Below the pieces are notes generated by a model. That model made no database searches, was not told the origin of the DNA, and saw nothing but the letters and a program-made list of their open reading frames with translations. A DNA stretch of 64,000 bases from Roseospira goensis (GTDB lineage: Bacteria; Pseudomonadota; Alphaproteobacteria; Rhodospirillales; Rhodospirillaceae), in the NCBI RefSeq assembly GCF_014197795.1, contig NZ_JACIGI010000003.1, positions 167,136-231,135 of the forward strand, in the 5' to 3' direction. The translations under genes were made by a program, and so were the position numbers. Positions 13,851 to 61,169 of this stretch are shown here, one piece after another (position 1 is the first letter of the stretch; each line of letters starts with the position of its first letter).

Positions 13851-13870
13851 GCCCGCGCCGGCCGCGCAGG

Positions 13871-13933
13871 CGCCCACGCCGGAGCGTGGGCGCGAGACGG
13901 GGGTTTTCTCGGTCCCACGCTCCCGCGTGGGCG
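13871..13933. repeat. paired GC-rich hairpins between convergent glgC and threonine aldolase genes
   Basis: Two hairpins (13871-13892, CGCCCACGC/GCGTGGGCG; and 13914-13931, CCCACGC/GCGTGGG) are also near-complementary to each other, flanking CGAGACGGGGGTTTTCTCG. The layout is REP/BIME-like and may end transcription from both sides, although T-runs are short. Confidence 0.7.
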
Positions 13934-13959
13934 CCGGATGAAGGCAGATCGGGACGGCC

Positions 13960-21703: not shown

Positions 21704-22419
21704 CGGGCGTCTCCCTGGTTCGGGGGCGAAGGGGGCCGGACGCGGTAGACCGCGGTCTCGCGGACCAGGCGATCCTCCAGCTCCAGCGTGGTGGCAACGG
21801 CATAACGCGCCAGGAGTTCCAGCCCGTCCCGCGGCACATGCGCCCGCCCGGGGTCGGCCAACAGCACCACCGCGCCCGCGGCCGCCTGCGCGCGCAGGAA
21901 GCGCGCGGCGCGGTCGGCCATCGGCTGTTCGTAGCACACGTCGCCGGCCAGGATCACGGCCCAGCGACCGGGCGCGGCGCCACCGGCGGGCGCATCGGCG
22001 GCCGGAAGCAGGTCGACCACCGACGCCACCACCCGATCCGCCACCCCGTTGAGCGTGGCGTTGAGGGTCAGCGCCTCGGCCGCCATCGGATCGGTATCGG
22101 CACCGGTCACGGCGTCCGCCCCGGCCCGCGCCGCGGCGATACCGGCGATGCCGCAGCCGGAGGCCAGGTCCAGGACCGAACGGCCGCGCACCAGTTCCGG
22201 GTCGTCGAGCACATGACGCGCCAGCGCCTGCCCCCCCGGCCAGGCGAAGGCCCAGAACGGCGGCGCGACGCCGCGCTCACGCAACAGCGCCTCGCTGGCC
22301 TGCCACAGCGGCGTGATCTCGGTCGCCAGGTGCAGGCGCAGGTCCGGCACGTGCGGTGGCGCGGCGACGGTGGTCCAGGTCCGGATGAAACGGCGCCGCG
22401 CCGCCGCGTCCAGGGTCAC
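21700..22419 (-). CDS. class I SAM-dependent methyltransferase (PrmA/METTL20-like)
   Basis: 239 residues from GTG 22419, which overlaps the YtoQ stop (GTGA). SAM motif I is VLDLASGCGIAGIAAARAGA, followed by VTGADTDPMAAEA and the post-II acidic motif VILAGDVCYEQPMA. The N-terminal PFWAFAWPGGQALARH segment is typical of the nicotinamide N-methyltransferase/ETFB-lysine methyltransferase (METTL20) group, so a protein-lysine substrate is likely. Translationally coupled to both neighbours. Confidence 0.85.
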   Translation of the reverse strand: MTLDAAARRRFIRTWTTVAAPPHVPDLRLHLATEITPLWQASEALLRERGVAPPFWAFAWPGGQALARHVLDDPELVRGRSVLDLASGCGIAGIAAARAGADAVTGADTDPMAAEALTLNATLNGVADRVVASVVDLLPAADAPAGGAAPGRWAVILAGDVCYEQPMADRAARFLRAQAAAGAVVLLADPGRAHVPRDGLELLARYAVATTLELEDRLVRETAVYRVRPPSPPNQGDAR

Positions 22420-22886
22420 CGCCCGGGCAGCCGGCCGGTCTGCACGTAGGCCAGCACCTGTGCCACCTGGGCCGGCGTCTCGCACACCGCCAGGGCGGCA
22501 GCGTCGACCTCCTTGAGGGCATGGGTCAGCTCGGGCGGATGCATGACGATCACCGGCGTCCCGAGCGCCGCCGCGTAGCCGGCATCGAAGGCGGCGTTCC
22601 ATTGCCGGTACTTGTCGCCGAAGCGGACCACCACGATATCGGCCTGTTCGATCAGCACCGTGGTGCGGATGGCGTTGATCTTGGCGCCCTTGTGGTCGCG
22701 CCAGAACGGGAGGTCCTCCTCACCCAGCAACACGACGCCGCAGTCATCCGAAGCGCCGTGGTCGGTGACCGGGCCGGAAAAGTCGATGCGCAGGCCGGCG
22801 GTCTCGCACGCCGCCATCACCTGGTCGCGCCAGTCGGTGTGGATCTCGCCCGACAGGTAGACGGACAGGTCGCTGGGTCCGAGCAT
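22416..22886 (-). CDS. ytoQ: YtoQ family protein
   Basis: 156 residues from ATG 22886, GGGAGGGGGG upstream. Matches the YtoQ family: SVYLSGEIHTDWR at the N-terminus, LIEQADIVVVRFGDKYRQWNAAFDAGYAAALG and VIVMHPPELTHALKEVD; the fold resembles nucleoside 2-deoxyribosyltransferases. Function is not established. First gene of a three-gene unit with overlapping methyltransferase genes. The 137-bp dispersed element ends only 14 nt upstream of the start codon, so the ribosome site abuts the element. Confidence 0.88.
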   Translation of the reverse strand: MLGPSDLSVYLSGEIHTDWRDQVMAACETAGLRIDFSGPVTDHGASDDCGVVLLGEEDLPFWRDHKGAKINAIRTTVLIEQADIVVVRFGDKYRQWNAAFDAGYAAALGTPVIVMHPPELTHALKEVDAAALAVCETPAQVAQVLAYVQTGRLPGR

Positions 22887-22900
22887 GGCACCCCCCTCCC

Positions 22901-23037
22901 TAGCGCCGATAGCTCGAAATCGGAACCACCGGGGTGGGGCCGATTTCGAGCGTGAATCGGCGCGATCTGTTGGTTTCAGAGCGGAACGCCCGAATTCGAA
23001 ATCACCATGCGATTCCGTATTCGGGCGTTCCGCTCTA
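22901..23037 (+). repeat. 137-bp bipartite palindromic dispersed element, copy 1
   Basis: Begins TAGCGCC and ends CGCTCTA. First hairpin: CTCGAAATCGG/CCGATTTCGAG with inner CCACC-GG-GGTGG (22913-22951). Second hairpin: AGAGCGGAACGCCCGAAT (22978-22995) pairs exactly with 23019-23036. Differs from copy 2 at 4 and from copy 3 at 11 positions. Sits between lysK and ytoQ. Confidence 0.95.
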
Positions 23038-27082: not shown

Positions 27083-27790
27083 ATGGCATCTCCCACCCCC
27101 AGGCCGCCTCAGAGCGTGCATCAGACCGACGATCCCGCCGCCGCAGCCCCGGTGGTCGCGCCGGGCGGCCCGGGCGACCGACTGCACGCCCCGGCCACGG
27201 CGCGCAACCGCGACGCCATTCGGGCGGTGTTGACCCGCGTCCTGCCAGCGGAGGGCACCCTGCTGGAAGTCGCCTGCGGCTCGGGCGAGCACGCCGCCCA
27301 CCTGGCGCCCGCCCTGCCCGGCTGGCGCTGGCGCCCGACCGAGGCCGATCCCGTCAGCGCGCGCGGCGCCGCCACCCTGCTGGCCGACACCGGCCCGGAC
27401 ACCGTCGAGCCGGTGCGCCTGTTCGACGTCCGCACCCGACCGTGGCCGGACCCGATCACGCGCGGCGTGACCGCCATCCTGGCCATCAATCTGATCCACA
27501 TCGCGCCGTGGGCGGTCGCGGAGGCGCTGCTGGCCGGGGCCGGCCACACTCTGCCGCCGGGCGGCCTGCTCTATCTTTATGGGGCCTTCATGGTCGACGG
27601 CCGCCACACCGCGCCGAGCAATGACGCGTTCGACCGCAGCCTGCGGGCGCAGGAGTCGTCATGGGGCGTGCGCGACCTGACCGACGTCGTGGCGGCGGCC
27701 CGGCGCCACGGCCTCACGCTGAGCGAGACGGTGTCAATGCCGGCGAACAATCTGTCCGTGGTGTTCACCCGCACCGACGGGAGCGCCTAG
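27083..27790 (+). CDS. DUF938 methyltransferase-like protein
   Basis: 235 residues. DUF938 family: RLHAPATARNRDAIRAVL, then LLEVACGSGEHAAHLAPALPG in place of a SAM loop, NLIHIAPWAVAEALLAGA and a C-terminal FMVDGRHTAPSNDAFDRSLR. The first 30 residues are Pro/Ala-rich and probably disordered. The enzymatic role is unknown. Its stop codon, TAG 27788-27790, is the first trinucleotide of the 137-bp element, so the insertion (or an exact junction) fixes the C-terminus. Confidence 0.85.
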   Translation: MASPTPRPPQSVHQTDDPAAAAPVVAPGGPGDRLHAPATARNRDAIRAVLTRVLPAEGTLLEVACGSGEHAAHLAPALPGWRWRPTEADPVSARGAATLLADTGPDTVEPVRLFDVRTRPWPDPITRGVTAILAINLIHIAPWAVAEALLAGAGHTLPPGGLLYLYGAFMVDGRHTAPSNDAFDRSLRAQESSWGVRDLTDVVAAARRHGLTLSETVSMPANNLSVVFTRTDGSA

Positions 27791-27924
27791 AGCGGAACGC
27801 CCGAATACGGACTCGCATGGTGATTTCGAATTCAGGCGTTCCGCTCTGAAACCAACAGATCGCGCCGAGTCACGCTCGAAATCGGCCCCACCCCGGTGGT
27901 TCCGATTTCGAGCGATCGGCGCTA
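27788..27924 (-). repeat. 137-bp bipartite palindromic dispersed element, copy 2 (inverted)
   Basis: Reverse complement of copy 1 with four differences. Its two terminal TAG trinucleotides are the stop codons of the genes on either side: 27788-27790 on the plus strand for DUF938, and 27924-27922 on the minus strand for the S4 protein. It fills the whole convergent gap, whose two hairpins may also end transcription. Confidence 0.95.
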
Positions 27925-28311
27925 ACCCTCGTCACCGCTCCGGCCGCGCAGCCGGTCCATCGCGCGCCGATCGCGCTTGGTCGGCCGGCCGCTGCCCGCG
28001 GCGCGCAGCAGGGTCGGGGCCATCACCGGATCGTGCAGCCGCTCCGGCGGCGCCGTCTCCTCGTACAGCGCCTGCGCCTCCGGCGCGGGGCCACGCCGCG
28101 TGCCCAGGGCCACCACGCGCACCCGCCGCCGGTACGGCCCCAGGATCAGCTCCAGGTCGTCGCCCGGGCGCACGGCGACGCTGGCCTTGGCGACCGGGGT
28201 TCCGTTCAGCCGGACGTGACCGCCGGTACACAGCGCCTGGGCCAGCCCCCGCGTCTTGCGGAAGCGGGCATGCCACAGCCACTTGTCGAGCCGCAGGGTC
28301 TCGTCCGCCAT
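27922..28311 (-). CDS. S4-domain RNA-binding protein (Hsp15-like)
   Basis: 129 residues from ATG 28311, which shares a base with the helicase stop (TGATG); a GTG one codon earlier is possible. The S4 domain occupies about 8-70: LRLDKWLWHARFRKTRGLAQ, GGHVRLNGTPVAKAS, VRPGDDLEL. The C-terminus is basic (RPTKRDRRAMDRLRGR). Hsp15-like proteins rescue stalled 50S subunits carrying peptidyl-tRNA. Coupled to the helicase, a pairing common in alphaproteobacteria. The stop is the terminal TAG of the repeat element. Confidence 0.9.
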   Translation of the reverse strand: MADETLRLDKWLWHARFRKTRGLAQALCTGGHVRLNGTPVAKASVAVRPGDDLELILGPYRRRVRVVALGTRRGPAPEAQALYEETAPPERLHDPVMAPTLLRAAGSGRPTKRDRRAMDRLRGRSGDEG

Positions 28312-30878
28312 CACGCCCGGGCCTTTTCCGCCAGCACCGCGAACGGCGAGTCCGCCGCCCGCGCCTGCCCGGCCGCCACCCGGCGCCGGCGCTCCGCCGC
28401 CGTCTCCGGCCGGCCCTTGGGACGGGCCTTGCGCCCGCCGCGGTCGGCGCGCAGGCGCACCGCCCCGGCGTCATCCCGCCAGGTGCGGAAGCCGAGAGCG
28501 CGGCACAGGCCCTCCGCCTCCTCCACCGAGACCCCCAGCATCGGCGGCAGCGCCGCGGGCAGCGCGGCCGCCTCCGCACCGCGGCCGGCCTCGCGCACCG
28601 CCTGACGCAGGCCGGCAGCGAAGCGTTCCAACATGTCCGCGCGCACCACGCGGCCCGCCAGCAGGCGATAGCCCAGAACCCGATAGTATACCTCGGCCAC
28701 CGCCGGATCCGCCGGCGCGGCCGCCGCCTCGACCCGAAACGACACCCGCCCAGCGGGCGCCGCCGGCGGCGGCAGCGCCCCCACGCTGGCCGCCCACAGC
28801 AGCGCCCGCAGCCGCTGCGACGACGGCTTCAGCAGGGGCGGCATGAACACGCTCTCGACCCCGAGCCGGATGTGTAGGCGCGCCAGCGCCTTGCGGTCGG
28901 CCCGGGTCAGCGTCCCGAGTTGGTCCGCCACCGCGGCGCGCGGCACCGTGCCCAGCGCCTCGGTGACCTGGTAGGCGATGCCCCGCGCGGCCCCCGACAG
29001 GGCCTCGGCCCGGTGCGTCGCCAGCAGCGGCGCCAGTTCGCGCCTCACCAGCCGCTCCAGCCAGGCCGCCAGGCGGCCCCGCACCCGCTGCGCCCGCTCG
29101 CCCGCCAGCAGGTCGTTGGCCGGCAGCTCGACGGCCGGCCGCAACGGTGCCGGCCCGCGTCCGAGCCGGGCGACGGCCACGCCCTGCCAGTGGATGGCGC
29201 CGTCGTCGGCCAGCGCGAAGGCGGCGTCGTCGGCGGTCTCCAGAGCGACGATGCGGCGCCCGATCTCGCCGTGCAGGGCCTTCAGCGCCGCGTTCAGCAC
29301 CGCGCGGTCGCCACGCCCACCGCCCCCTCGCTCGGGCGTGAACGTGAACCCCTCCAGGCGACCGACGAACTGGTCCTCGACCCGCACCCCGCCGGTCCGG
29401 TCCACCACCGCGGTCAGCGCCTCGCGATCGTGCAGTTTGCGCATCAGCACGGCGGTGCGGCGGTCGACGAAGCGCTGCGTCAGGCGCTCGTGCATGGCGT
29501 CCGACAGGCGGTCCTCGATCGCCCGGGTGCGCGCCCGCCAGTGCTCGGCATCCGACAGCCAGTCGTTCTGATGCGCCACGTAGGTCCAGACACGGATGCT
29601 GGCGATGCGGTCGGTGAGGGTGTGGATGTCGCCGTCCACGCTGTCCAGGCGCTTGACGTGCCCGGCGATCCAGTCCGGCGGCAGGCGGCCGGCGCGGCTG
29701 GTCAGGTGGCGGTAGATCTGCCCTTGCAGACGGATGTGGGACTGCTCGTGGATCTTGCGGAAATCGGGCACCCGGCAGACGTCCCACAGCAGCGCCACGG
29801 CCTCACGCCCGCGCGCCAGGGCGCGGATGTCGTCCTCGCGCGTCAACGCCTCCAGCGCCGTCTGGTCGGGCGCGTCACGGGTGCGGCGCAAGACGTCGAG
29901 GCCGGCCGGAGCGTTCAGGCTGTTGTGAAGCGCGGCGACGGAGGAGAAGTCGAGCGCGCCGTTGCGCCACTGGATCGTGCGCACGGTCTGGAACTGGTGG
30001 CCTTCGACCCGGTCCACCAACTCGGTCGGCAGCGGCCCGACGTCGGCGGTGGTGCCGAAGGTGCCGTCGGTCATGTAGCGCCCGGCGCGGCCGGCGATCT
30101 GCGCCACCTCGCTGCTGCGCAAGGCGCGCTGGCGGGTGCCGTCGAACTTCTCCATCGCGGCGAAGGCCACATGGTCCACGTCCATGTTCAGGCCCATGCC
30201 GATGGCGTCGGTGGCGACCAGATAGTCCACCTCGCCGCCCTGATACAGCGCCACCTGGGCGTTGCGGGTGCGCGGGCTCAGCGCCCCCATCACCACCGCC
30301 GCGCCGCCCCGCTGGCGGCGCACCAGTTCGGCGATGGCGTACACGTCGCCGGCCGAGAACGCCACGATGGCGCTGCGCCGCGGCAGCCGCGTCAGCTTGC
30401 GCGGTCCGGTATAGGTCAGGCGCGAGAAGCGCGGCCGGGTCTCGAACAGGCAGTCCGGCAGCAACCGGCGCAACAGCGGCTCCATGGTCGCCGCGCCCAG
30501 GAACAGGGTCTCCTCGCGCCCACGGGCGTGCAGCAGGCGGTCGGTGAAGACATGACCGCGCTCCGGATCGGCGCAGAGCTGAATCTCGTCGATGGCGAGG
30601 AAGTCGACCGGCCGGCCGACCGGCATGCTTTCGACCGTGCAGATGAAGTAGCTCGCACCGGGCGGCAGGATCTTTTCCTCGCCCGTGATGAGCGCCACCT
30701 TGGCGGCGCCCTTGGCGCGCGCCACCCGCTCGTAGTTCTCCCGCGCCAACAGCCGCAGCGGGAATCCCATCATTCCAGACGGGTAGCCGAGCATGCGCTC
30801 GACCGCCAGATAGGTCTTGCCGGTGTTGGTCGGGCCGAGCACGGCCCAGACCCGCGAGCGATCGGTCAGGGCGGTCAT
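28311..30878 (-). CDS. SUV3-like superfamily II RNA helicase
   Basis: 855 residues from ATG 30878. Walker A GPTNTGKT is at 15-22, followed by GMMGFPLRLLARENYER (motif Ia), the DEAD-like AIDEIQL box, GAATMEP (SAT-like motif III), LVATDAIGMGLNMD (motif V) and QIAGRAGR (motif VI). This set matches mitochondrial SUV3 and its alphaproteobacterial relatives, which unwind RNA for degradation. The long C-terminal half has no clear motif. Overlaps the S4 gene; downstream of a short HPF gene (134 bp). Confidence 0.93.
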   Translation of the reverse strand: MTALTDRSRVWAVLGPTNTGKTYLAVERMLGYPSGMMGFPLRLLARENYERVARAKGAAKVALITGEEKILPPGASYFICTVESMPVGRPVDFLAIDEIQLCADPERGHVFTDRLLHARGREETLFLGAATMEPLLRRLLPDCLFETRPRFSRLTYTGPRKLTRLPRRSAIVAFSAGDVYAIAELVRRQRGGAAVVMGALSPRTRNAQVALYQGGEVDYLVATDAIGMGLNMDVDHVAFAAMEKFDGTRQRALRSSEVAQIAGRAGRYMTDGTFGTTADVGPLPTELVDRVEGHQFQTVRTIQWRNGALDFSSVAALHNSLNAPAGLDVLRRTRDAPDQTALEALTREDDIRALARGREAVALLWDVCRVPDFRKIHEQSHIRLQGQIYRHLTSRAGRLPPDWIAGHVKRLDSVDGDIHTLTDRIASIRVWTYVAHQNDWLSDAEHWRARTRAIEDRLSDAMHERLTQRFVDRRTAVLMRKLHDREALTAVVDRTGGVRVEDQFVGRLEGFTFTPERGGGGRGDRAVLNAALKALHGEIGRRIVALETADDAAFALADDGAIHWQGVAVARLGRGPAPLRPAVELPANDLLAGERAQRVRGRLAAWLERLVRRELAPLLATHRAEALSGAARGIAYQVTEALGTVPRAAVADQLGTLTRADRKALARLHIRLGVESVFMPPLLKPSSQRLRALLWAASVGALPPPAAPAGRVSFRVEAAAAPADPAVAEVYYRVLGYRLLAGRVVRADMLERFAAGLRQAVREAGRGAEAAALPAALPPMLGVSVEEAEGLCRALGFRTWRDDAGAVRLRADRGGRKARPKGRPETAAERRRRVAAGQARAADSPFAVLAEKARA

Positions 30879-55255: not shown

Positions 55256-55392
55256 TAGCGCCGGTCGCTCGAAATCGGAACCACCGGGGTAGAGCCGATT
55301 TCAAGCGTGACTCGGTGCGATCTCTTGGTTTCAGAGCGGAACGCCCGAATTCGAAATCACTATGCGATTCCCTATTCGGGCGTTCCGTTCTA
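55256..55392 (+). repeat. 137-bp bipartite palindromic dispersed element, copy 3
   Basis: Same orientation as copy 1, 11 differences, no length change. Ends TTCTA 15 nt before the start codon of the glycosyltransferase gene, with its GGAGG ribosome site between. Confidence 0.95.
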
Positions 55393-55407: not shown

Positions 55408-57609
55408 ATGCCGGAGCGTGACTTCGAAGACCAGAAGAGCGCGACATCCCTCGACAGCGTGGTGAGCCTGCCCGAGGGCGGCGGCTTCCTGCAGAAGCTC
55501 GCGAGCAGTGCCCCGGTCGGGTCGGCCCTGTTCCTGGCCGAGCAACTGGACGCCCTGCACCAGATCGGCGCCCACCTGGCGGTCGTTCCCAAAGCGGAGA
55601 CGTTCACCCGCCGCTTCCCGCACTACGAGTTCGGCTGGATCGCGCTGTGCGTCGCGCTGCGGCAGCTGAAGCGACTCGATGCCGCGCTGGAGACCACCGG
55701 CCTGTTCATCGCCTGGCACCCGACCGCCCCGGCGGCCTACCAGGCGCGCGCCCGGGTGCTGGTGGACCTGGGACGCGCCGACGAGGTGGCCCGGCAGTAC
55801 CAGCGACGCGCCTCTCTTCAGCCCGACGACGTCACCACGCTCGCGGTCTATGGCGACCTGCTGCGAGCCTCCAACCGGCTGGACGAGGCCGCGGCGGTGT
55901 ACGCGCGCGCCCTCGCGCTCGACCCGCTGCACAACGACTGCCTGTTGGGTCGCGCCGATGTCCTGGGGAAGACCGGCGACCTGAGCGGCATGCTCGCGCT
56001 GTACCGGCGCGCCCTCGCCGCCAACCCGGCCAACGCGCATGTGTTCCGCTGGCTGGCCCGCAGCGTCAACGACCTGGGCAAGACGGCTCAGGCGGAATTC
56101 CTGTGTCAACGCTCGATCCATCTGCGCCCCGACTGGGCCGAGCCGCTGGTGGATCTCGGCGACTACCGACGCAAGGGCCGGCCCGACCGGGGGGCCGAGC
56201 TGTACCGCAAGGCCCTGGTGCTGGACCCGGCATCCCACCGGGCGCTCCTCAACCTGTCCAGCACACACATGGAGCTGGGAGAGACGGAGACGGCCCTGCG
56301 GGTCCTCAGCCGCGTCGAACGGCTGAAGCCGCACTCCTCGGTGCCGCAGAGCAACAAGCTGTTCTACATGCACTACCTGGCGGAGGCGACGCAGGCCGAG
56401 ATCCGGGCCGTGATCGACGCCTGGGCGCGGACCTTCGCCGACCGAACGGAGGCGCCGCCGCCCACGGTGCGCGACCCCAGGCCCGACCGGCCGCTGCGGA
56501 TCGGCATGATCTCGTCCGGCTTCGGGCGCCATCCGGCCCTGAAGCTGTCGCTGCCCGCGTTCGAGGCCATGGACAGGGACACCTATCGCCTGATCGCTTA
56601 CAGCGGCCGGCGGCGCGAGGACGACCTGACCAAGCGCCTCGCCGCCTGCGCCGAGATCAAGGTTGTCGAGCACCTGTACGACGCGGCGCTATCGGCCCTG
56701 ATCCGCGACGACGAGATCGACATCCTGATCGACATGGCCGGGCATGCCAGCGGCTGCCGGCTGGCCATCTTCCCGCAGCGCCTGGCGCCGGTGCAGGTCA
56801 AGTGGGTGGGTGGCCAGTTCAACACCACCGGCGTGCCGGGCATGGACTGGTTCATCGCCGACGCGGTCGAGGTCCCGCCGGGTCACGAGGTCTGGTACAC
56901 GGAGCGCGTCTACCGCATGCCCGACGGCTACGTGGTGTTCGAGCCGCCCGCGACGGCGCCCCCGATCTGGCCGTTGCCGGCCCGGATCAAGGATCACGTC
57001 ACCTTCGGGTCGTTCAACAACCCGATCAAGGTCAACGCGCGGACCATCGACCTGTGGACCCGGGTGCTGAACGGCGTGCCGGACAGCCGCCTGATCCTGA
57101 AGGGCGACAAGTTCGCGGTCCCGGCGGCGCAACGCCACCTGCTGGCCCTGTTCGCGCGCGGCGGCATCGGCGCGGAGCGCATCATTTTCCGCGGCCACAC
57201 ACCGCACACCGAGCACCTGCAGACCTATAACGAGGTCGACATCAGCCTGGACCCCTGGCCGTACTCCGGCGGCCTGACCACGTGCGAGAGCCTGTGGATG
57301 GGGGTCCCGGTGGTCTCCTGGCCCGGCCCCACGTTCGCCGGGCGGCACGCCGCGTCGCATCTCAACAACGTGGGCCTGACCGAGTGGATCGCGGCCGACG
57401 CCGACGCCTACGTGGACATCGCCGTGTCCTGGGCGCACCGGCTGGACGATCTCGCGGCCCTGCGCGCCTCGCTGCGGGAGACGGTGTCTGCCTCCACCCT
57501 GTGCGACGGCCCCCGTTTCGCCCGCCACCTGGAGACCGCGCTGCGGCATATGTGGCACGACGCGCTGACGCGCAGCCGGGTCGCGCAGCCCTGTGAAATC
57601 GGGTCCTGA
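55408..57609 (+). CDS. TPR protein with O-GlcNAc-transferase-type (GT41/SPINDLY) domain
   Basis: 733 residues from ATG 55408 (GGAGG 8 nt before). About 75-330 is a row of TPR repeats (ALALDPLHNDCLLGRADVLG, LVLDPASHRALLNLSSTHME). From about 365 the GT41 domain: IGMISSGFGRHPALKLSLP, DILIDMAGHASGCRLAIF, APVQVKWVG, VTFGSFNNPIKV and YSGGLTTCESLWMGVPVV. It should transfer a sugar from a UDP-sugar to a protein Ser/Thr in the cytoplasm. Lies directly downstream of flagellin and upstream of a methyltransferase, so flagellin is a plausible target, but this is inference. Confidence 0.9.
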   Translation: MPERDFEDQKSATSLDSVVSLPEGGGFLQKLASSAPVGSALFLAEQLDALHQIGAHLAVVPKAETFTRRFPHYEFGWIALCVALRQLKRLDAALETTGLFIAWHPTAPAAYQARARVLVDLGRADEVARQYQRRASLQPDDVTTLAVYGDLLRASNRLDEAAAVYARALALDPLHNDCLLGRADVLGKTGDLSGMLALYRRALAANPANAHVFRWLARSVNDLGKTAQAEFLCQRSIHLRPDWAEPLVDLGDYRRKGRPDRGAELYRKALVLDPASHRALLNLSSTHMELGETETALRVLSRVERLKPHSSVPQSNKLFYMHYLAEATQAEIRAVIDAWARTFADRTEAPPPTVRDPRPDRPLRIGMISSGFGRHPALKLSLPAFEAMDRDTYRLIAYSGRRREDDLTKRLAACAEIKVVEHLYDAALSALIRDDEIDILIDMAGHASGCRLAIFPQRLAPVQVKWVGGQFNTTGVPGMDWFIADAVEVPPGHEVWYTERVYRMPDGYVVFEPPATAPPIWPLPARIKDHVTFGSFNNPIKVNARTIDLWTRVLNGVPDSRLILKGDKFAVPAAQRHLLALFARGGIGAERIIFRGHTPHTEHLQTYNEVDISLDPWPYSGGLTTCESLWMGVPVVSWPGPTFAGRHAASHLNNVGLTEWIAADADAYVDIAVSWAHRLDDLAALRASLRETVSASTLCDGPRFARHLETALRHMWHDALTRSRVAQPCEIGS

Positions 57610-57659: not shown

Positions 57660-58568
57660 ATGGTAACAGAACCAGCCCCCGTGGCGGTCCCCGAGACGGC
57701 CCCAGAGACGGCCCCAGAGACGGCTCTGAAAACGGCTCTGGAGACGGCTCTGGAGACGGCCCCAGAGACGGGCGCGCGGAGCGACGCGGCCGAGGACGCG
57801 CGCATTCGCCGCACCGTGGCGACCCTGCGCGTCGAGGACGTCTTGCTGCTCGCGCGCAAGATCGACCGCCGCCACGCCCTGTGGCCGAAATCGCTGAACC
57901 TGTGGCGCGAGGAGCCCTGGTCGGACGACCTGCGCCGCATCGTGGACGTGAGCGGCTACACCTTCAGCGTCTTCTCCATGACGCCCGCCACGATCGCCGC
58001 GGTGACCCGCATCGCAGGGATCATTGGGGCGCGGTCGGTGCTGGAGCTGGGCGCCGGAGTCTCGACCCTGGCCCTGGCGCAGGACCTGACGGACCGGTGC
58101 GGGTCGGACTGGTCCCTGGTGTCCATCGACGAGGATGCGGACTACGCCGATCTCATCGCCGGCATGTGCGCGACCCTCTCGGTTCCGTCCCGGTACTCGG
58201 TCCTGGGGGCGCGCACGGCCCCGGCCGAGGCGTTCGACATCAGCACCCGATGCTACGACCGCCGGGACGTGCTGCCCTTCGCCGGCGCCTATGCGCCCTA
58301 CGACATGCTGGTCATCGACGGCCCCAAGGCCGGCGCCGAGCCCGGCCACCCGTTCGCGCGCCTGCCGACGGTGCCGGTGTTCCGCCCGTTCCTGCGCGAC
58401 GATGCCGTGATCGTGCTCGATGACGTGTTCCGGGATACCGAGTTGACGGCCATCGTGCACTGGATCCGTAACGGCCATGTCCGGCCGCTGGGGATCAGCC
58501 CGGTCGGCAAGGGCCTGTTCGTCGGGCGCCTGCGCACCCCACCCGCCACCGTGCCCGACGACTCCTGA
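57660..58568 (+). CDS. class I SAM-methyltransferase-like protein with (ETAP)n N-terminus
   Basis: 302 residues. The N-terminus (about 11-36) is an ETAP/ETAL repeat encoded by a 12-nt minisatellite (57693-57764). The core has SVLELGAGVSTLALAQDL, SIDEDADYADLIAG and DMLVIDGPKAGAEPG, a Rossmann methyltransferase fold with acidic binding residues. No firm family. Begins 50 bp after the glycosyltransferase gene and is probably co-transcribed; may methylate a sugar or a protein. Confidence 0.75.
   Translation: MVTEPAPVAVPETAPETAPETALKTALETALETAPETGARSDAAEDARIRRTVATLRVEDVLLLARKIDRRHALWPKSLNLWREEPWSDDLRRIVDVSGYTFSVFSMTPATIAAVTRIAGIIGARSVLELGAGVSTLALAQDLTDRCGSDWSLVSIDEDADYADLIAGMCATLSVPSRYSVLGARTAPAEAFDISTRCYDRRDVLPFAGAYAPYDMLVIDGPKAGAEPGHPFARLPTVPVFRPFLRDDAVIVLDDVFRDTELTAIVHWIRNGHVRPLGISPVGKGLFVGRLRTPPATVPDDS
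57693..57764 (+). repeat. 12-nt coding tandem repeat, six units
   Basis: GAGACGGCCCCA and variants at 57693, 57705, 57717, 57729, 57741 and 57753, encoding ETAP/ETAL/KTAL. In-frame, so copy number would vary without frameshift. Confidence 0.9.
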
Positions 58569-61038: not shown

Positions 61039-61103
61039 GCGACCGGGCGCGCGCCGGCGCGCTCCCCCGCGCCCGACGCCCCGTACATTCCGCGCGGAGT
61101 CAC

Positions 61104-61142
61104 GCGATCAATCCGAACCACGGCGTGGGTCCGATTGATCGC
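61104..61142. repeat. inverted repeat upstream of the XRE gene
   Basis: GCGATCAATC (61104-61113) and its complement (61133-61142) enclose a 19-nt loop whose CCAC/GTGG ends also pair. Confidence 0.75.
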
Positions 61143-61169
61143 GATCCGCGCCAAGCCTGACCGGCCACG

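Follow-up and report, generated by a model that had tools for sequence, protein, structure and literature searches.

The 137-bp palindromic element that recurs in the window (the whole 64,000-nucleotide stretch of the Roseospira goensis genome that we analysed) is one subfamily of a mosaic superfamily of 137–140-bp elements with a common layout, in which two hairpin modules of about 63 bp are inverted around a spacer of about 12 bp and TA usually stands at both ends. These are probably non-autonomous mobile elements, that is, fold-back miniature transposons with hairpin ends, which a transposase acting in trans inserts into YTAR with duplication of the TA and which make up a mosaic superfamily. 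The elements are present in high copy number and with chimeric modules, duplicate 2 bp upon insertion, prefer YTAR, are absent between divergent genes, provide stop codons and have conserved GANTC sites.

A sequence-only reading of the window had proposed three 137-bp copies, one of them inverted, and the sequence confirmed all three at the coordinates given in Table 1. The proposed range of 4 to 11 differences without a gap was also borne out, as copy 1 aligned ungapped to copy 2 with 4 differences in 137 positions (97.08% identity) and to copy 3 with 11 in 137 (91.97%). Both hairpins ascribed to each copy were present in the sequence and in the fold; the 18-bp arms of the right hairpin, described as perfect, are so in copy 1 only, and have one mismatch each in copies 2 and 3. 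The fold of copy 1 (−85.3 kcal/mol, z = −9.9) was equalled in stability by none of 200 shuffled sequences, and in the consensus structure 10 of the 40 pairs are kept through changes on both sides. A 21-base pattern from the left end, with ≤3 mismatches allowed, was found 3 times, whereas shuffled sequences gave a mean of 0.00. The whole window gave no Rfam family at the gathering score, and five element loci gave three matches far under it, one of them to the Brucella sRNA CI408. With start codons assigned by eye, copies 1 and 3 each lie just upstream of a gene start: 14 bp separate copy 1 from the ATG of a ytoQ-like gene (about 22416–22886, minus strand), and 15 bp separate copy 3 from that of a TPR/glycosyltransferase-41 gene (55408–57609, plus strand). 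Tandem 12-bp repeats were noticed at 57670–57771 of the window.

Table 1. Coordinates of the elements, their parts and the adjoining stop codons in the window.
Feature	Position	Strand	Evidence
Copy 1, A′B′ element	22901..23037	+	Sequence, fold, genome-wide alignment of 21 copies
Parts of copy 1: TA; module A′ (left hairpin), 22903–22963; linker, 22964–22977; module B′ (right hairpin), 22978–23036; TA			
GAATC, first CcrM-type GANTC of copy 1; its N is a hypervariable column	22954..22958	+	21-copy alignment
GATTC, second GANTC of copy 1, with the second hypervariable column at its N	23011..23015	+	21-copy alignment
Copy 2, A′B′ element, inverted, between two convergent genes	27788..27924	−	
Right-end TAG of copy 2, which is the stop of the DUF938 (methyltransferase-like) gene 27083–27790	27788..27790	+	
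Left-end TAG of copy 2, which is the stop of the S4-domain gene 27922–28314	27922..27924	−	
Copy 3, A′B′ element	55256..55392	+	
GACTC, first GANTC of copy 3	55309..55313	+	
GATTC, second GANTC of copy 3	55366..55370	+	
Single hairpin module of D type from this superfamily, decayed	61090..61155	+	By eye; hairpin scan 61103–61143; D-type modules at other loci

The element is by no means confined to the window. When the 137-bp sequence was used as a query against its own genome (G000, a 4.18-Mb draft in 81 contigs), at least 40 distinct loci were found among the best 40 of 103 candidates that were scored; copies do exist outside the window, as the sequence-only reading required. Essentially full-length copies, spanning at least 134 of the 137 query positions, made up 21 of these loci and were 84–99% identical in pairwise comparisons (mean 94%). 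Most of the remaining 19 loci match the query in part only, and several run into a different spacer and second hairpin. Among 60 relatives, with up to the best 14 candidates per genome scored, the same query found 0, 1, 1, 0, 0 and 2 loci at E ≤ 0.001 in the congeners G001 to G006, respectively, and none at this threshold in the other 54 genomes. A search for plasmid relatives with two element queries gave no match at E ≤ 0.01. Of the orthologous empty sites that the earlier reading had hoped to compare, congener loci could be aligned at 8 element sites and none of them has the element, but sequence divergence blocks a base-exact reading of the empty site, and in related contigs at copies 1 and 2 the spacers are too rearranged for comparison. 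The copies are nearly species-specific, and in the explanation we prefer the superfamily would expand separately in different species.

The partial matches lead to the mosaic nature of the superfamily. Locus L056, which carries an A-B type element of 140 bp, matches the 137-bp query over its whole length at 71%; used as a query itself, it found at least about 40 strong loci among the best 40 of 107 candidates scored, a few of them common to the first query. Modules recur in the pairings A-B, A-C and A′-B′, chimeras of the types A′-B and A′-C are also present, and loci L329, L330 and L331 are half-module hybrids. At L070 (1501–1640), module A occupies its usual place but has the opposite orientation to that in the other aligned copies, as though recombination or cruciform resolution had flipped the hairpin. 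When the left module was compared with the reverse complement of the right one, five elements gave identities of 59–69% and a Rhizobium element gave 57%, each exceeding the best of 100 shuffles by only 1–10 points (2 for A′B′ and 1 for the Rhizobium element). Because of this resemblance, the element is best read, from its sequence, as a putative inverted pair of fold-back modules.

Furthermore, we built a covariance model from 27 elements and applied it with strict filters to 61 genomes, 13 of which gave matches: at least 53 in the own genome, at least 53 in G025, 50 in G055, 40 in G050, 25 in G003, 16 in G004, 14 in G006, 10 in G039, and 2 to 6 in each of five further genomes; the counts outside the own genome often include a single element on both strands. 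The congener G005 gave no match to the model. Most of the matches among those listed are 133–143 bp long and a few are shorter; the common layout and the TA ends were also seen on reading 20 copies from G025 and 20 from G055. At L006, an A′B′ copy abuts the terminal TA of a bipartite palindromic element that by eye is apparently unrelated (TAGTGCAC...GTGCACTA), which suggests that there are further families of the same layout.

The ends of the copies and the sites that they occupy show how the elements insert. The TA borders claimed from the three copies were found at both ends of most copies (own genome, 33 of the 47 scored among 51 examined; G025, 15 of 20; G055, 14 of 20). The outcome that would have spoken against that reading, copies with variable ends and no TA borders, did not occur, although a minority of copies has a non-TA end. 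In five of the six copies with a non-TA dinucleotide at both ends, the two sides carry the same one (TC, AT, AT, TC, TC), the sole exception being L011 with TG/TC; in several other copies, just one of the two ends deviates from TA. The agreement between the two sides indicates that the dinucleotide is derived from the target. Moreover, the elements at L003, L005, L014 and L068 are inserted in module C of another element. Taking out each one together with one TA rejoins flanks that align, with no gap at the junction, to paralogues free of an insertion; these mostly have TA or TT (AA on the other strand) at this point, and some more diverged paralogues lack 3 bases there. The other matches in the paralogue search were short GC-rich chance matches, and all four nested insertions are in one kind of repeat. 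This site in module C looks like a hot spot, comparable to that of IS711 in Bru-RS.

The target itself was defined from 63 insertions that are bordered by TA on both sides and have sufficient flanking sequence (35 in G000, 15 in G025 and 13 in G055; copies with non-TA ends were dropped). YTAR was present at 44 of these 63 sites, compared to 185 of 3513 TAs in the background, a 400-kb stretch sampled from the own genome and used for all three genomes (p = 2e-41). Insertion of the element duplicates 2 bp, mostly TA within YTAR. At L010 (1501–1637), a G002 sequence aligns across the junction with about 66% identity, and this copy may interrupt a gene.

Genes around the elements were called with a simple GC3-based ORF caller, which is crude and misses some genes, for instance the one that stops at L009, the one whose stop is at the left end of L008 and the S4-domain gene adjoining copy 2. 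The element is repeated and intergenic: 39 of 51 elements could be classified as sitting between genes, 22 between co-directional genes, 17 between convergent and none between divergent ones, and of the other 12, 11 were left unclassified by the caller and one (L001) was placed inside an ORF through a caller artefact. Among 248 background gene pairs, 158 were co-directional, 48 convergent and 42 divergent, so that the elements are depleted between divergent genes (p = 0.002) and enriched between convergent ones (p = 0.002). Element ends also serve as stop codons. The YTAR sites of the background sample (n = 185) comprise 46 inside called ORFs and 25 that form stop codons; 17 element ends coincide with called gene stops, a higher share than the 25 of the 139 sampled YTAR sites outside ORFs (p = 0.0002 with one stop counted per element for 39 elements; the comparison is rough, as the sampled sites include element ends). 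By a second criterion, 24 of 70 TAG ends are gene stops. At L009, for example, the TAG of the element ends a gene that in five congeners ends at the same position with TGA (three), TAG (one) or TAA (one).

The two GANTC sites, one in each hairpin, are a further conserved feature, site 1 being kept in 20 and site 2 in all of the 21 full-length copies (genome background 1.4–1.5 per kb). At the same time, the two most variable of the 137 columns in these copies are precisely the N positions of the two sites, element positions 56 and 113 (22956 and 23013 of the window in copy 1). Site 1 has A in 9 copies and C in 12, counted over the alignment, and site 2 has T in 9 and G in 12, while the other columns have at most 3 minority bases each (mean 0.49); all four combinations occur (7, 5, 4 and 4 copies), and one copy is without site 1. 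In the intact centre GANTC sites of modules B, B′ and C, N is T or G in 68 of 70. Just as in the own genome, GANTC sites are present in the 20 copies read in each of G025 and G055, but there N is not hypervariable, and a two-state N as a general trait of the class was thereby ruled out. Context counts for N in the A arm (201 matches) and the B 5′ arm (116) were dropped as contaminated by background sites, and the count for D modules (8) was set aside as small. Drift does not explain a near-even two-state N in otherwise conserved copies; it could come from reassortment of two old variants or from recurrent two-state mutation. CcrM is expected in the own genome from its clade, going by what is reported in PMC3973325. 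We rate it as quite improbable that mobility or copying is coupled to CcrM methylation, such that GANTC in both hairpins would be read in its fully methylated or hemimethylated state and some process at the hairpin, e.g., template-switch repair of an N mismatch, would repeatedly switch N from one of its two states to the other. If this were true, N would be a record of replication-coupled events. The anomaly of N at methylation-type sites can be tested with methylome data.

According to the mechanism that we propose, two related modules of about 63 bp facing each other across a short spacer would make each transposon end a whole hairpin. A transposase supplied in trans, presumably a DDE enzyme (IS711/IS427-like or IS630-like), would recognize the module ends (mostly TA-GNGC) and put the 137–140-bp unit into the TA of YTAR, the TA being duplicated. 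Because the first base inside the end is mostly G, an in-frame insertion would give a TAG stop; insertions would persist where they fall at the 3′ end of a gene or between convergent genes, and the hairpins may serve as terminators or protectors of mRNA 3′ ends. Recombination between copies would swap modules and thereby produce the mosaic superfamily.

As to the transposase, the assignment of the borders to Tc1/mariner (IS630) in the sequence-only reading held in part: the 2-bp TA duplication fits it, but the family was not established, the ends being whole hairpins, whereas a mariner MITE has simple terminal repeats. A classical MITE of this type, made from and moved by an IS630 transposase, would be a special case of the explanation we prefer, and we consider it possible, though rather doubtful. 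Apart from the TA duplication, the rare TC and AT duplications resemble the non-TA products of ISY100, an IS630-family element described as using almost only TA targets, with another dinucleotide, AA/TT, duplicated in 2 of 39 products (PMC2170065); a CTAG preference of IS630 is indicated by the title of a reference cited there (PMC2170065). DDE_3 matches over the family cut-off were found in 6 of the 10 element-bearing genomes tested, namely in all five congeners with covariance matches (G001–G004 and G006) and in G050, and G005 has neither a covariance match nor a DDE_3 match over the cut-off, its single one being below it. Against this type of MITE, besides the hairpin ends, DDE_3 gave no match at E ≤ 0.001 in G000, G025, G055 and G039, all of which carry elements, and a screen of five of the nine congener DDE_3 loci (L234–L237 and L240), which used a 7-base seed to look for terminal repeats, listed no pair that corresponds to the element ends. 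Searches for an IS5-type helper (PF13340 in the genus, DDE_Tnp_1 (PF01609) in G000 and G025) gave no end match either: PF01609 had four matches in the own genome and none in G025, and PF13340 had two loci in the own genome, at one of which a single end, TA-GGGCCCGTTGAC, could be read by eye. This end and those of an insertion sequence in G002 (TA-GAGCCTGAC) have only 5 bases after the TA in common with the element end TA-GAGCCGATTG, and both are leads only. No autonomous element with the same ends was found within the first 170 bases at 13 of 55 arm-pattern sites, these 13 being truncated or hybrid elements, carrying another hairpin sequence or having no partner arm; four further sites look like chance matches. 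The helper transposase may have been lost in the own genome, or may belong to another class than those searched.

Two other explanations concern the palindromes and the location of the copies. The two inverted palindromes, together with one Y1_Tnp match in the own genome, recall a REPIN-like element copied by a Y1 tyrosine transposase (RAYT), which we nevertheless hold to be very unlikely. In the own genome, the only one searched for it, the Y1_Tnp gene adjoins GTAGGTTGGGGTGAGCG-type palindromes and not these elements, and the GTAG tag is missing, as G precedes TAG in 0 of the 35 own TA-bordered copies; membership in the REPIN/RAYT class was rejected on these grounds. Single-strand REP insertion is not known to give a target duplication, and the agreeing non-TA dinucleotides at the element ends indicate a true one. 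The modules, at about 63 bp, are also longer than the 20–40 bp given for REPs in PMC3733652. The RAYT-type gene and its GTAGGTTGGGGTGAGCG...CCCCAACCTAC palindromes (L167, 1276–1358 and 1354–1923) form a separate repeat system, and yet another hairpin repeat family, with the core CCCACGC-GGGAGCGTGGG, was noticed at 13869–13935 of the window and at L217, L221, L222, L223, L225, L228 and L233, occurring singly and in clusters in a 10% sample of the genome. Alternatively, the element might be mainly a regulatory one selected by the host at gene ends, such as a CcrM methylation site or a bidirectional terminator, with its spread being incidental. The retention of GANTC in 20 and 21 of 21 copies and the lack of any of the 39 classified copies between divergent genes speak for such a role, and CIR repeats have been proposed to relate to CcrM regulation (PMC2229807). 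We judge it unlikely all the same, as the copies are alike, nearly species-specific and absent at the compared congener loci, and purifying selection acting on an element that seeks YTAR would leave the same pattern of location, 46 of 185 sampled YTAR sites being in ORFs and 25 of 185 at stops.

The element is best read as a new family of the known CIR/RIME kind, by its architecture and with no claim to sequence membership, for which we provide new evidence on movement. A literature search, made without most subscription papers, found nothing on these Rhodospirillales elements or on the insertion mechanism of CIR and RIME, which is weak evidence of novelty. The CcrM-associated intergenic repeats of Caulobacter (CIR; Chen and Shapiro 2003) are described as two long inverted repeats with a linker, about 110 bp in length, with a conserved GANTC (PMC2229807), and in the Delihas review their mobility mechanism is said to need more information (PMC2229807). 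Likened by description, our elements share with CIR the two long inverted repeats and linker, the alphaproteobacterial host, the intergenic position and the conserved GANTC at the stem-loop, but are longer (137–140 bp compared to about 110 bp) and are here shown to have a 2-bp duplication and a YTAR target.

The sequence-only reading likened the element in size to ERIC, a 127-bp repeat, and to rhizobial RIME repeats; the resemblance to RIME holds at the level of layout. RIME are reportedly Rhizobium-specific intergenic mosaic elements (Osteras et al. 1995). A RIME-type motif matched 380 plasmid records, and five of the Rhizobium repeats, which we take to be the published RIME, were read. Just as our elements, they consist of a hairpin, an AT-rich spacer and a second hairpin and have a CTA end; GANTC (GATTC in the second hairpin) is present in 4 of 5, and 4 of 5 lie between convergent genes, three of the five being the same fba locus in different strains. 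They differ in being about 116 bp long and in having another sequence. RUP of Streptococcus pneumoniae is likewise a short non-autonomous TA-inserting repeat, of 107 bp, AT-rich and present in about 110 copies, and has a proposed helper, IS630-Spn1 (PMC2229807, PMC3049150), in contrast to our elements, for which no helper was found among the transposase families searched.

In its target site, the element matches IS711 of Brucella, which is presumably an IS5-family element. It duplicates the TA of YTAR and is reported to prefer the palindromic Bru-RS repeats (PMC2266754), which are 103–105 bp long (PMC2267715). The TA of YTAR is duplicated here as well, and four of our elements are inside another palindromic module; the likeness to Bru-RS is by description, and IS711 differs in being an autonomous insertion sequence of 842 bp. 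The superfamily is also an example of a small element that provides the 3′ ends of many genes with stop codons and hairpins. Alphaproteobacteria frequently contain RIME, CIR and Bru-RS repeats, and for repeats of this kind the superfamily supplies an insertion rule, a 2-bp duplication at YTAR, which, together with the nested insertions, the nearly species-specific expansions and the chimeric modules, allows the helper to be sought in a short list of transposases.
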